Shown here piece by piece: positions 457 to 14,519 of a stretch of DNA of 55,660 bases (within the stretch, counting starts at the first letter, position 1; each line of letters begins with the position of its first letter). Position numbers and translations under genes: made by a program. The DNA comes from Acidobacteria bacterium RIFCSPLOWO2_02_FULL_65_29. GTDB taxonomy: Bacteria; Acidobacteriota; Vicinamibacteria; Vicinamibacterales; CAVVIG01. The notes beneath the pieces are model-generated. The model had not been told where the DNA came from, did not search any database, and worked only from the letters and a program-made list of their open reading frames with translations. The DNA lies in the NCBI GenBank assembly GCA_001767435.1, contig MEKT01000237.1, positions 1 through 55,660 on the forward strand, written 5' to 3'.

Positions 457-941
457 GGAGTCTCGTCCGCCTCGGCCAGAACGCGACGGATCAGCGCCCG
501 ACCGAGCCAAATGCCGTTCTTCGTCATGGCCTCCAGTCGAGGCGCGACGGCTTCGATGAGACCTTTCCGCTTGGCCCGGAGCAGGATGCCAACGCTACCG
601 GTGACCGACAGCCCCGCGTCTCTGGCGACCAGTCGTCCTCGTCGCTCGTTCATGGCCACCAGGCGAAGGCCCGCCTCGAGCGCGAGAGCAATGGCCGATG
701 CTTCACCGATGTCGAGATGGGAGATGAGGAGAGCGGGAACGGACGCGGCGAGGCTTCGCACCTCGAGCCACTCGGGCAGCTGCATCGGCTGTCCAGATTC
801 GCCGCGACAAAACTCTTCGACAACGGCCGTCGGGACGAGGACACGCGAGTGCAAGTGCCGAAGCAGGTCGAGCGAATCGCACGCGGCCAGCGCAATGAGT
901 GGCCCGGTATTGACCGCGATGGGCTCAGTCGCCGCGGGCAT
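453..941 (-). CDS. PIN-domain (DUF3368-type) toxin
   Basis: This 162-residue protein is a predicted PIN-fold ribonuclease of the DUF3368 group, normally the toxin of a toxin-antitoxin pair. The start motif IAVNTGPLIALA matches the usual SNTSPLIALA of the group; an acidic residue follows in PTAVVEEF, another in the GEASAIALA segment, and the last conserved motif reads VAMNERRGRLVARDAG. In many relatives that last motif has Asp where Asn occurs here, so activity may be reduced. The chosen ATG at 941 overlaps the end of the UPF0175 gene by 17 bases, a typical coupled arrangement; an upstream start would bury it further in that gene. Confidence 0.85.
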   Translation of the reverse strand: MPAATEPIAVNTGPLIALAACDSLDLLRHLHSRVLVPTAVVEEFCRGESGQPMQLPEWLEVRSLAASVPALLISHLDIGEASAIALALEAGLRLVAMNERRGRLVARDAGLSVTGSVGILLRAKRKGLIEAVAPRLEAMTKNGIWLGRALIRRVLAEADETP

Positions 942-1200
942 AGTCGAGCTCGTCGTCAATCTCCCGGTCGTCCAAGTCAATCGAGGCCACACCCACGCGG
1001 TGGAGGCTCAACAGGAACGTCCGGCGATCCATTCCGCACACCGCTGCCGCCCTGCCTGATGACAAGCGTCCGAGCTCGTAGAGCTTCGAGGCCAGGAGAA
1101 ACGTCGCTTCCTGGACGAAGCCTTCGCGCGTCTGGCCGGTCGGGATCAGAATGCTCTCGGGAAGCGTAATGGTGATGTCGCTCCTCTGGTTGGCTCCCAT
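925..1200 (-). CDS. UPF0175-family antitoxin
   Basis: The 91-residue product begins MGANQRSDITITLPES and has the UPF0175 core: an alpha-helical segment (EATFLLASKLYELGRLSSG) followed by a helix-turn-helix-like part (AAAVCGMDRRTFLLSLHRVGV) and an acidic C terminus ending DDELDYARGD. UPF0175 proteins are known partners of DUF3368 PIN toxins and are thought to neutralise them and repress the operon. The toxin gene follows with a 17-base overlap. The same frame is open upstream to about 1644, but that part lies opposite the collagen-Hcp gene and I regard it as a shadow. Confidence 0.85.
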   Translation of the reverse strand: MGANQRSDITITLPESILIPTGQTREGFVQEATFLLASKLYELGRLSSGRAAAVCGMDRRTFLLSLHRVGVASIDLDDREIDDELDYARGD

Positions 1201-1413
1201 CCGGTCATCATCCTCCTCGATACGCAAGCTTGTCCAACCGGCTCGGCACCGTGGTGGCGCTTTTGCCACGCACTTGGCGGCATGGGCGCAAGCCCAGTAT
1301 TCTTTCATGAATGTCATCGTTCCAGAAGACTTCTTCGGCGTGCGCATGTGCGTCGTCTGTCCGAGAAAAAGCATTCGACGTCGGTCAGACTTTTCTTGCA
1401 CGTGGGGCGGCAT

Positions 1414-1430
1414 GAGATAGAAACTATCTC
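1414..1430. promoter_or_regulatory. Perfect inverted repeat upstream of the collagen-Hcp gene
   Basis: Two 7-base arms (gagatag and ctatctc) flank a 3-base centre, 34 bases before the ribosome binding site of the gene at 1475. The rest of the 1201-1474 spacer shows no gene. Size and place suit an operator, but the binding protein is unknown. Confidence 0.35.
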
Positions 1431-1474
1431 TCCACGACATCGTCGGTCTCGGTGCTCGTTTCTCGGAGGTGACC

Positions 1475-2227
1475 GTGAGCAGTTCCTTGCGCATCAGGCG
1501 TGTATTCGGCGCCGCGACGTTCAGCGCTCTCTTGTCTTTCGTCTTGATCGCAGGCACCACGGTGTCGGCCCAAAGCGGGACGATCCGCGCCTGCGTCGGC
1601 AGCGGCGGCAAGCTGTCCGTCATCGGCCCGAGCGAGTCGTGCAAGGCCGGAGAGTCCCTGTTGATCTGGAATGCGGTGGGTCCGACGGGACCGGCCGGCC
1701 CGATCGGTCCGACGGGACCCGCCGGCCCGACCGGCCCCGACGGCCCGGCCGGACGCGACGGACGTGATGCTCAATCGCCGCTCCCTCCAGCGGCCATCGT
1801 TGAACTGCAGATGAAAGTCGATGGGATGAACGGGAACAACCCGACGCCGATTCAGCAGTTCTCGCTCGGCGCCACGAATACAGGCGGCTCCGCGAGCGGC
1901 GGAGGCGGCGGCGCGGGCAAAGCCAGCTTTCAGGATCTGGTCGTGACGAAGATGCTGGACGGACTGTCGCTGCCGCTTCTGTCCGCCGCGGCGACGGGCA
2001 TGCACCTCAAGAACGTGGAGATCGATGTATTCGACGTCGGCAGCAGCATCCCGTTCGCGACCTACGTGTTCGAAGACGTCATCGTGACCGCCGACCTGAT
2101 CGGATCGTCACAGACGGCCCTGAACGAGCAGGTGTCGTTCAACTACGCGAAAATCACCTCGGACATCACCGTGAACGGCACGACGTTTCACAGTTGCTAT
2201 GACCTGTCGCTGGCAAAGAGCTGCTGA
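1475..2227 (+). CDS. Secreted Hcp-fold protein with collagen-like repeats
   Basis: The 250-residue product has a Sec-type signal peptide (residues 1-32, ending TTVSA), a short globular part with two Cys, ten collagen-type G-x-y triplets (about residues 69-98: GPTGPAGPIGPTGPAGPTGP and on), then an Hcp-like domain (about 112-240). The Hcp domain carries the family signatures MKVDGMNG, the glycine-rich GGGGGAGKASFQDL and VSFNYAKITSD. Hcp is the tube protein of type VI secretion and normally has no signal peptide, so this copy probably serves outside the cytoplasm, perhaps as a trimeric surface or matrix protein. The GTG at 1475 is preferred over the one at 1469 because a GGAGG box lies 5 bases before it. 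No other type VI gene is nearby. Confidence 0.85.
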   Translation: MSSSLRIRRVFGAATFSALLSFVLIAGTTVSAQSGTIRACVGSGGKLSVIGPSESCKAGESLLIWNAVGPTGPAGPIGPTGPAGPTGPDGPAGRDGRDAQSPLPPAAIVELQMKVDGMNGNNPTPIQQFSLGATNTGGSASGGGGGAGKASFQDLVVTKMLDGLSLPLLSAAATGMHLKNVEIDVFDVGSSIPFATYVFEDVIVTADLIGSSQTALNEQVSFNYAKITSDITVNGTTFHSCYDLSLAKSC

Positions 2228-5783: not shown

Positions 5784-6203
5784 TCAGGCGTCGGCGGGAA
5801 GGAGTCGAAATCTCTTCCGGTCCACCGTCCGAAGGGTGCGGAAGTGGCGCTCGTCCAGGGTCAGGATCTCACGAGTGCCATACTTCTGGGCTAAGACCAC
5901 CATCGAGGCATCCGCGATCCCTATCTCGAGGTCGGCGTATCGCTTGATGATCGCCAGAGCCGCGCCGACCTCTGACGAGCTGAACGTCTCGAGTCGGTAG
6001 GCCGCCCGCGCGACCTCGCCCAATAGGGCGGTCTGGGCGCCCGCGCCGACTTCGGTCGACAGCAGGTAGTCGAGCTCCGCCAGAACGAACGGCGAGAGGA
6101 TCAGCGGTGGACGTGCGCGCGCCAGAACGTCCGCGCATGCGGCGTGTTGCCGTTGGCTGTCGTCGATGGCCGCGAGCAATCCGCTGGTGTCGAGGACGAT
6201 CAC
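5784..6203 (-). CDS. PIN-domain toxin (VapC-type)
   Basis: The 139-residue PIN protein starts at a GTG at 6203 that overlaps the stop codon of the RHH antitoxin gene (GTGA). The acidic residues expected for Mg-dependent RNA cleavage are present: Asp in VIVLDTSGLLAA, Glu in FVLAELDYLL, Asp in GIADASMVVLA and Asp in LTLDERHF. It should act on tRNA or rRNA when freed from its antitoxin; the substrate cannot be predicted. A much longer open frame reaches 6494 but its extra part lies opposite or within the antitoxin gene and is rejected. Confidence 0.85.
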   Translation of the reverse strand: MIVLDTSGLLAAIDDSQRQHAACADVLARARPPLILSPFVLAELDYLLSTEVGAGAQTALLGEVARAAYRLETFSSSEVGAALAIIKRYADLEIGIADASMVVLAQKYGTREILTLDERHFRTLRTVDRKRFRLLPADA

Positions 6204-6430
6204 CGGCGCCCGAAGCCCTTCAGGTGCGCGTCCACGCGCTCGGCGAGCGACGGCTTGCCGCTGCGAAAGAGCGGCAGCCGCGGCGGCGGCGGGCCCTCGG
6301 CCGCCGTGAGCGTCGACAGCGCTTCTCGAACGATGTCGGCCTCGCTCTGGCCTCTCCGGACGGCGAGCTCGGCCAGGGCCCGTTTCAACTCCTCCGGAAG
6401 ATACACCGTCGTCTTTTGCATGCCATACAT
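6200..6430 (-). CDS. Ribbon-helix-helix antitoxin (VapB-type)
   Basis: The 76-residue product begins MYGMQKTTVYLPEELKRALA, a typical ribbon-helix-helix strand and first helix, followed by a second helix (SEADIVREALSTL) and a Pro-rich linker that would bind the toxin. It directly precedes and overlaps the PIN gene, as in vapBC operons, and should repress the operon with the toxin. The start is uncertain: an in-frame ATG at 6421 is closer to the family consensus, and a TATTAT box at 6434-6429 would put transcription start near it. Two GTATGG words flank that box (minus strand) and may be operator half-sites. Confidence 0.8.
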   Translation of the reverse strand: MYGMQKTTVYLPEELKRALAELAVRRGQSEADIVREALSTLTAAEGPPPPRLPLFRSGKPSLAERVDAHLKGFGRR

Positions 6431-6537
6431 AATACCATACGTTTCCGCCCTCCGCTGGTCCGCCGCGCTGTTGTCGCCCCGACGACATCGACATCTCGCC
6501 GTCGCAGATTCGTTGTTGGCGGCCTGTCCGGGTCCCC

Positions 6538-7937: not shown

Positions 7938-8120
7938 ATGGAGGATCAGGCCGCGCTGGCGAGAACGGCGGCTCTCCTTCGCGGCACTGCGCGTCTTGTG
8001 CCCTGTGGTGTCTATCGCTTCTCGAGCTTCGAAGAGGCCGACGCGTGGATGACCAGGATGATGCTGCGTACGCACGAGCACCGGAGCCGGAAGACCTCAT
8101 CCGCATCTGCCGCGCCCTGA
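7938..8120 (+). CDS. Small partner of nucleotidyltransferase module B
   Basis: The 60-residue product from the ATG at 7938 starts MEDQAALARTAALLRGTARL and has the string VYRFSSFEEADAWMTRMMLRTH followed by a basic Ser-rich end. I know no named family, but as I recall the FxxxEEADAWM...R pattern occurs in small proteins that precede nucleotidyltransferases in related genomes. Its last 76 bases overlap the nucleotidyltransferase frame, so translation of the two is likely coupled. A GTG at 7899 would give 13 extra residues. Antitoxin function is an inference from layout. Confidence 0.6.
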   Translation: MEDQAALARTAALLRGTARLVPCGVYRFSSFEEADAWMTRMMLRTHEHRSRKTSSASAAP

Positions 8121-8538
8121 ACGACGCTGGCGCCCATTACGTGCTGATCGGCGGCTTTGCGGTCATCGCTCACGGCGCGGGCCGTTTCACGAAAGACATC
8201 GATCTCCTGGTCGATGAGGCGCCCGAGAATATCGCCCGCGTGAAGCAAGGCCTCAGGATCCTCGCCGACAATGCCGCCGCAAATGTGGCCGACAATGACG
8301 TCCGCGACCACACCGTCGTTCGCGTGGTGGACGAAGTGATCGTCGACCTCATGGGACGGGCGTGTGGATTGAAGTACTCGGATGTGGCCGCGGACATGGA
8401 GTGGCACGACCTGGCCGGCGTCCGCGTGCCTGTCGCCAGCCCGTCGGCCCTCGTTCGAACGAAGACACCTATCGTCCGCAGGATGCGATCGACCGTGCAT
8501 TCCTGCAGCAGCTCCTGGAGCGGCGTCAGCGCAAATGA
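8045..8538 (+). pseudogene. Nucleotidyltransferase-fold gene, module B, with a 1-base frameshift
   Basis: The first 140 residues form a good nucleotidyltransferase: AHYVLIGGFAVIAHG, the acidic pair in TKDIDLLVDE and a third Asp in EVIVDLMG. Near 8464, after SALVRTK, the frame breaks. If one base is restored there, it continues DTYRPQDAIDRAFLQQLL ... ERRQRK and stops at 8536-8538, the usual end of this family. Without it, translation runs on to 8665 with an atypical Arg/Gly-rich tail. This is either a recent inactivating deletion or a base-calling error. The metal-binding core is before the break. The GTG start at 8045 lies inside the small partner gene. Confidence 0.75.
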
Positions 8539-12570: not shown

Positions 12571-12825
12571 GTGTTGACACGCGGCATCCGCGAGTTCGTT
12601 TCGCGCGACTGGGACGCGACGCGCGAGGCGAAGGACATGTACTGGGCCGCGCGCATCGCCCGTCTCGGGCCGCTCGAGGGTCTGCGCATCGCCGAGGAAC
12701 TGCGTCGCCAGGCGCTGGCGCAGGACTCAAAGTGGCCTCATCCCGCCGACCGGGATCAGGATCTGTTGTCCCATGCGCGCGTCGCCGGGCTTCTCCGCCG
12801 TGCCAGTGCAGCCCGCCGCGCTTGA
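12571..12825 (+). CDS. Small partner of nucleotidyltransferase module C
   Basis: The 84-residue product starts at a GTG (MLTRGIREFVSRDWDATREA) and continues KDMYWAARIARLGPLEGLRI, then AEELRRQAL and a short basic end. The pattern R-D-W---R-E-A-K--YW---I---GP-E-LRIA-ELR is conserved-looking and, as I recall, found before nucleotidyltransferase genes in many genomes, though unnamed. Its end overlaps the nucleotidyltransferase gene by 53 bases in another frame, which points to coupled expression. By comparison with modules A and B I infer an antitoxin-like role. Confidence 0.65.
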   Translation: MLTRGIREFVSRDWDATREAKDMYWAARIARLGPLEGLRIAEELRRQALAQDSKWPHPADRDQDLLSHARVAGLLRRASAARRA

Positions 12826-13378
12826 GCTGCTGGCGGCACTGTCGAGCGTCCTGGCGCGCTGGGGGCGCTGGTACCTGTTCGGAGCACAGGCGGTCATCGC
12901 TTATGGCGTGCCGCGACTGAGTGCCGACGTCGACGTCACGATTGCGCTCGTCCCCGACGAACCGGAGCGTTTCGTGCGCGACATGGAAGCGGTCGGATTC
13001 GCCCTCCGGGCCGACGATCCCGACTTCGTCCGGCGGACCAGGGTCATGCCTTTTGTCCACCTCCCGACGGCCATGCCGCTCGACGTGGTGCTGGCAGGGT
13101 CGGGGCTCGAAGACGAGTTTCTCGATCGGGCGCGACACGTGGACGTGGGCGGGACGACCGTGCCGCTCATCGATCGCGAAGACCTGATTATCGCCAAGAT
13201 TCTTGCGGGCCGCCCCAAGGACGTCGACGACGTTCAGAGCCTCTGGCGTGTTCACGGGCGAGCGCTGGACGCCGAGCGCATTCGCCGGACGCTTGGCCTT
13301 CTGGAGGAGGCCCTGAGTCAGAGCGACCTTCTTCCCAGCTTCGAATCGATCTTGGCGCGTCAATCGCGTTCAACCTGA
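12773..13378 (+). CDS. Nucleotidyltransferase-fold protein, module C
   Basis: The 201-residue protein contains the pol-beta-type core WYLFGAQAVIAYGVPRLSAD followed by VDVTI, so the acidic pair Asp-x-Asp is present, and a further Asp in MPLDVVLAG. A conserved helix DREDLIIAKILAGRPKDVDD follows, a signature of AbiEii-related and DUF-type nucleotidyltransferases. It is complete, unlike module B. The likely reaction is transfer of a nucleotide to RNA or protein; the target is unknown. The ATG at 12773 lies inside the partner gene. Confidence 0.8.
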   Translation: MRASPGFSAVPVQPAALELLAALSSVLARWGRWYLFGAQAVIAYGVPRLSADVDVTIALVPDEPERFVRDMEAVGFALRADDPDFVRRTRVMPFVHLPTAMPLDVVLAGSGLEDEFLDRARHVDVGGTTVPLIDREDLIIAKILAGRPKDVDDVQSLWRVHGRALDAERIRRTLGLLEEALSQSDLLPSFESILARQSRST

Positions 13379-14436: not shown

Positions 14437-14444
14437 AAATATTG

Positions 14445-14519
14445 CGCCCGTAGCTCAGGGGATAGAGCACCCGCCTCCTAAGCGGGGGGCCGCCAGTTCA
14501 AATCTGGCCGGGCGCACCA
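14445..14519 (+). tRNA. tRNA-Arg (anticodon CCT)
   Basis: A full cloverleaf can be drawn. The acceptor stem pairs GCGCCCG with CGGGCGC, followed by discriminator A and an encoded CCA. The D arm is GCTC/GAGC, the anticodon stem CCCGC/GCGGG has the loop CTCCTAA with anticodon CCT, and the T arm is GCCAG/CTGGC with loop TTCAAAT. The variable loop has 5 bases. It reads the codon AGG, rare in high-GC genes. No integrase gene or repeated 3 prime end is seen next to it. Confidence 0.97.

Follow-up and report, generated by a model that had tools for sequence, protein, structure and literature searches.

Gene pairs at the locus

The window analysed here, a stretch of 55,660 nucleotides, belongs to contig 237 of an acidobacterial draft genome of 5.5 Mb (G000), the close relatives of which are Vicinamibacteria MAGs. 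Within 9 kb of it lie three small genes of 94 (pair A), 60 (pair B) and 84 codons (pair C), each with a nucleotidyltransferase (NTase) gene directly 3' of it (Table 1). The preliminary description had reported three such pairs, two overlapping and one with a short gap, and all were confirmed at their positions; the gap, 13 nt from small gene to NTase, is that of pair A. That each small gene precedes a complete or nearly complete NTase holds for pairs A and C and needs correction for pair B, where the NTase frame is broken. At an E-value of 0.01 or lower, some 15 NTase loci were counted in G000, and with this number the probability of finding three inside 8.6 kb by chance is p ~0.003.

Table 1. 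Positions of the three gene pairs in the window, with predicted roles and conserved residues
Feature	Position	Strand	Remarks
Pair A small protein smA, 94 aa	5348..5632	-	putative antitoxin, MenA1/PF18993 group
Pair A NTase, 194 aa	4750..5334	-	MenT-like putative toxin; S41/D43/D45/K138/D155
Pair B small protein smB, 60 aa	7938..8120	+	putative antitoxin, new family; conserved core GVYRFxSFEEADxWM
Pair B NTase	8045..8538	+	frame-broken near 8464; T49/D51/D53/K140 kept
Pair C small protein smC, 84 aa	12571..12825	+	putative antitoxin, new family; three-helix prediction
Pair C NTase, 192 aa from conserved GTG	12800..13378	+	MenT1-like putative toxin; longest ORF from 12773
Pair C NTase catalytic set			S50/D52/D54/K142/D153, numbered on 201-aa ORF

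The overlap in pair C is real but shorter than first described. The start common to its relatives is the conserved GTG, so that the true overlap is 26 nt and not 53 nt, a figure that came from the longest ORF; for the nine N-terminal residues encoded by this longer frame, the structure model shows no confidence. In pair B, the GTG start of the NTase is likewise conserved in relatives and gives an overlap with the small gene of 76 nt, which is the same in 13 of the 14 relatives checked.

Further genes of toxin-antitoxin (TA) type were observed nearby. A VapBC-type pair of ribbon-helix-helix antitoxin and PIN toxin (5784-6494 and 6200-6430, minus strand) is located between the NTase pairs, and a DUF3368 (PIN-like) gene adjoins a UPF0175 gene (453-992 and 925-1644, minus strand), a TA-type combination that is already known. 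Five TA-like modules are thereby found within 13 kb, namely the three NTase pairs and these two. Just past this TA-rich stretch, a tRNA-Arg (CCT) gene at 14444-14519 represents a possible integration site.

Nucleotidyltransferases

According to profile comparison and structure modelling, the enzymes of all three pairs are MenT-like. Profiles of the C-type and A-type NTases matched MenT1 (8an4/8an5/8rr5) with E-values of 1.7e-10 and 1.9e-4, respectively, and the pair B NTase as a single sequence matched MenT1 8an4 with an E-value of 1.6e-7. The model of the pair C NTase (pLDDT 87, pTM 0.84) found its best structural match in Mycobacterium tuberculosis MenT1 (Z 18.4, rmsd 2.8 Å, 178 residues), followed by ANT(2'') and LnuA (Z ~12-13) and by MenT3 (Z ~11-11.5).

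The toxicity of MenT1 depends on D41, K137 and D152 (PMC10435456). By alignment, their equivalents are D52/K142/D153 in pair C and D43/K138/D155 in pair A, while the pair B enzyme keeps only D51 and K140. All three NTases carry a Ser or Thr at the phospho-acceptor position (T39 in MenT1), and the Ser/Thr-x-Asp-x-Asp motif, the Lys and the Asp of pairs A and C are conserved across genera. The frame of the pair B NTase breaks between the catalytic Lys and the last catalytic Asp, the latter being encoded in another frame. Intact relatives of this enzyme were found, including a second copy in G000. Pair B in G000 is probably a decayed module; its toxin would lack activity, provided that the broken frame does not stem from misassembly.

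Against AbiEii (PF08843), pair B scored 27.0 bits (cutoff 22.5) and pair C a sub-threshold 16.6, and pair A gave no match. In NCBIfam and PADLOC, a weak AbiEii match of pair B was the sole match of the pairs, and no paper linking DUF6036 to toxin-antitoxin systems was found in the literature.

Small proteins

Substitution rates by codon position were coding-like for smA (0.20/0.12/0.60), for smB outside the overlap (0.24/0.20/0.55) and for smC (0.28/0.26/0.50), and we therefore regard all three as real genes. Inside the pair B overlap (8045-8120) the NTase frame is conserved better than the smB frame, for which reason the last ~25 residues of smB may be passengers.

The three small proteins had been described as resembling neither one another nor AbiEi, and both statements were borne out. 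Profile comparison detected no similarity among smA, smB and smC, with profile-profile probabilities of ~1 or less for smA against smB and smA against smC, and none of these proteins of 60-94 aa matched AbiEi in Pfam, NCBIfam or PADLOC.

In Pfam, smA gave a weak match to PF18993 (Rv0078B; E 0.005), scoring 17.3 against a cutoff of 27.1. When compared profile to profile with members of PF18993 from the phylum that do exceed the cutoff, the match rose to a probability of 95.7 (E 1e-8), and at several PF18993 loci the next gene is an A-type NTase (E 1e-65 to 1e-72). On the strength of both results, pair A belongs with MenA1/MenT1, and by profile comparison smA is a distant member of the MenA1 (Rv0078B)/PF18993 antitoxin family.

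For smB and smC, no family was matched in Pfam, NCBIfam or PADLOC; this includes PF18993 in Pfam and any DNA-binding family, and the profile-profile probability of smC against PF18993 members was only 9.6. The two proteins thus appear, from these searches, to constitute two antitoxin families so far undescribed. A HEPN domain was matched in none of the small proteins or their relatives, and searches of the PDB with their sequences and profiles yielded no match. The structure model of smC (pLDDT 84) consists of helices at residues 2-32, 34-51 and 58-83, for which Foldseek returned no fold match in the PDB.

Co-occurrence and partner fidelity

A family search for constant co-occurrence had been proposed as a check, and it was carried out on 100 related genomes of the same order (small-protein alignments A3 for smC and A2 for smB). 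Relatives of smC were present in 29, of smB in 25 and of smA in 12 of the 100 genomes, and an NTase of the matching subfamily adjoined the small gene at 28/30 (C), 26/28 (B) and 11/13 (A) loci. Neither an absence of co-occurrence nor a sharing of the small proteins with unrelated gene contexts was found in these genomes.

When the search started from the NTases, each of the 23 intact C-type enzymes was accompanied by its own small family, as was each true B-type enzyme (two of the B-type matches being partial), and 17 of the 21 intact A-type NTases away from contig edges have smA upstream. At two further A-type loci, L163 and L166, a weak smA-like match lies downstream of the NTase (E 0.005-0.006), and at L166 it shares one ORF with the enzyme; L168 and L170 show no smA-like match. 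More distant NTases (L139, L142, L200) are preceded by other small ORFs. On an NTase tree labelled by partner, 7 partner changes were counted against a least possible 3; the count of 7 is a rough upper figure, some labels being wrong where one locus holds two NTases. Based on the pairing counts from both sides and on the tree, we conclude that the small partner is fixed within each NTase subfamily. The earlier suggestion of a modular system with exchangeable partners thus applies on a deep evolutionary scale only, and not within a subfamily.

By eye, additional pairs of small gene and NTase with other small families were recognized in G000 on C117, C182, C21, C184 and C229 (L209-L212, L217); the small gene on C184 is of the PF18993 family and its NTase is frame-broken. 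When the genome collection was scanned for smC with a closer alignment subset, 20 loci were recovered, all from acidobacterial MAGs, and a search for the pair C NTase on plasmids gave no match. An smA domain lies N-terminal to an A-type NTase within one ORF on a Herpetosiphon plasmid (L088; smA E 1.5e-12) and on a Calothrix plasmid (L091; smA E 1.7e-7), and a Nostoc plasmid (L089) carries what looks by eye like the same smA-NTase fusion in one ORF. On an Azospira plasmid, the smB core is followed by a B-type (NTB) NTase with an overlap of 1 nt, which argues that the long overlap of pair B is not essential.

Decay of the pairs is one-sided. The small gene is intact beside a broken or absent NTase at 7/30 (C), 7/13 (A) and at least 4 (B) loci, and the reverse, an intact NTase lacking its small gene, was seen at none (C), at most 2 (A) and none (B). 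In a toxin-antitoxin system, loss of the toxin is tolerated and loss of the antitoxin is not, so this pattern fits the NTase being the toxin. Part of this bias may be due to the NTase gene being longer (~2.3x) and to MAG assembly errors.

Toxin-antitoxin interpretation

According to our analysis, the three pairs are likely MenAT-type toxin-antitoxin operons with the NTase as toxin and the small protein as antitoxin. Constant pairing, the fold, the catalytic residues, the family link of pair A, the fusions and the one-sided decay of the NTase form the basis of this reading. Most likely, two of the pairs carry new antitoxin families and the third a distant MenA1-type antitoxin. The preliminary description had gone further and proposed a candidate new TA type. 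The constant pairs and their resemblance to TA modules were upheld, but the novelty of the type was not, because the enzymes are MenT1-like and smA falls into the MenA1/PF18993 family.

MenAT1 (Rv0078B-Rv0078A) of M. tuberculosis is an experimentally demonstrated TA system of the same architecture (PMC10435456, PMC11375011). It shares with the pairs described here an antitoxin gene in first position and an NTase of ~195 aa that agrees in fold and in catalytic residues, and its antitoxin MenA1, which is ~70 aa long and lacks a DNA-binding domain (PMC10435456), is joined by smA through profile comparison. In E. coli, MenT1 does no harm (PMC10435456). MenAT1 differs in that smB and smC are unrelated to MenA1 in sequence, and in that pair B has a long conserved gene overlap and the A-type shows fusions. 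The AbiE system (AbiEi-AbiEii, type IV) likewise has a toxin NTase of the AbiEii/DUF1814 superfamily, for which pair B exceeds the AbiEii cutoff, but its winged-helix antitoxin AbiEi (~190 aa) is absent here, where the partners measure 60-94 aa. MenAT3 (Rv1044-Rv1045, TakA-TglT) has the NTase core in common, though its toxin is larger (~290 aa) and its antitoxin both larger and unrelated. MNT-HEPN (MntA-HepT) is also an NTase module of two genes; in the present pairs, however, the NTases of ~195 aa are MenT-like and no HEPN protein was matched.

By analogy with MenAT1, we infer toxicity, a tRNA target and the mechanism of neutralisation for the three pairs. The toxin would extend tRNAs with nucleotides at their 3' acceptor end, as MenT1 does, and translation would halt. 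The small protein would be translated before the enzyme, and in pairs B and C the gene overlap may couple translation of the NTase to it. It would then bind the NTase directly and hold the enzyme off, possibly by masking its active site, by prompting it to phosphorylate its own Ser/Thr located two positions ahead of the first catalytic Asp, or by both.

Several observations speak against a TA system. For smB and smC, no relationship to any antitoxin could be detected, the fusion of an antitoxin to its toxin is unusual for classical TA systems with a labile antitoxin, and the fold also occurs in the antibiotic adenylyltransferases ANT(2'') and LnuA. The last two points would suit a two-subunit metabolic or resistance enzyme, with the small protein as an obligate accessory subunit and a small molecule, for example an antibiotic, as substrate. 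We consider such an enzyme unlikely, as MenT1 is the clearly better structural match and aligns over nearly the full length, and as the small gene often persists beside a broken NTase, which would not be expected of a pure accessory subunit; the patchy distribution (12-29 of 100 genomes) and the adjoining TA pairs also argue against it.

Alternatively, the pairs might be MenT-like TA systems in which the roles of the partners differ, smA being a direct inhibitor and smB or smC serving mainly in translational coupling or transcriptional autoregulation. The mutually unrelated small families, the nearly invariant overlap of pair B and the conservation of the C-terminal part of smB chiefly in the NTase frame are compatible with such a division. 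Nevertheless, the failure of smB and smC to match DNA-binding families and the dispensability of the long overlap, as seen in Azospira, make it rather improbable. It is very improbable that the pairs are decaying remnants with no present function: the broken frame of pair B and of the NTase at another MenA1-type locus in G000 would agree with this, but pair A and pair C are both intact, their catalytic residues being kept across genera and their codon evolution protein-like.

Returning to the MenAT-type interpretation, we lean slightly towards a scenario in which a single superfamily of MenT-like toxins has taken on many small helical antitoxins unrelated to one another, about seven different families apparently standing next to these NTases in G000 alone, in which every such family is confined to one NTase subfamily, and in which one lineage may have fused toxin and antitoxin into one self-regulated protein. 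If the three pairs are indeed MenAT-type systems, MenAT, established by experiment in mycobacteria, would also occur in soil acidobacteria and on plasmids of cyanobacteria and Chloroflexota, and present libraries would be missing at least two antitoxin families. As the same toxin fold is paired with unrelated antitoxins, a comparison of these would moreover test whether all of them use the proposed common mechanism, the induced phosphorylation of the active-site Ser/Thr.
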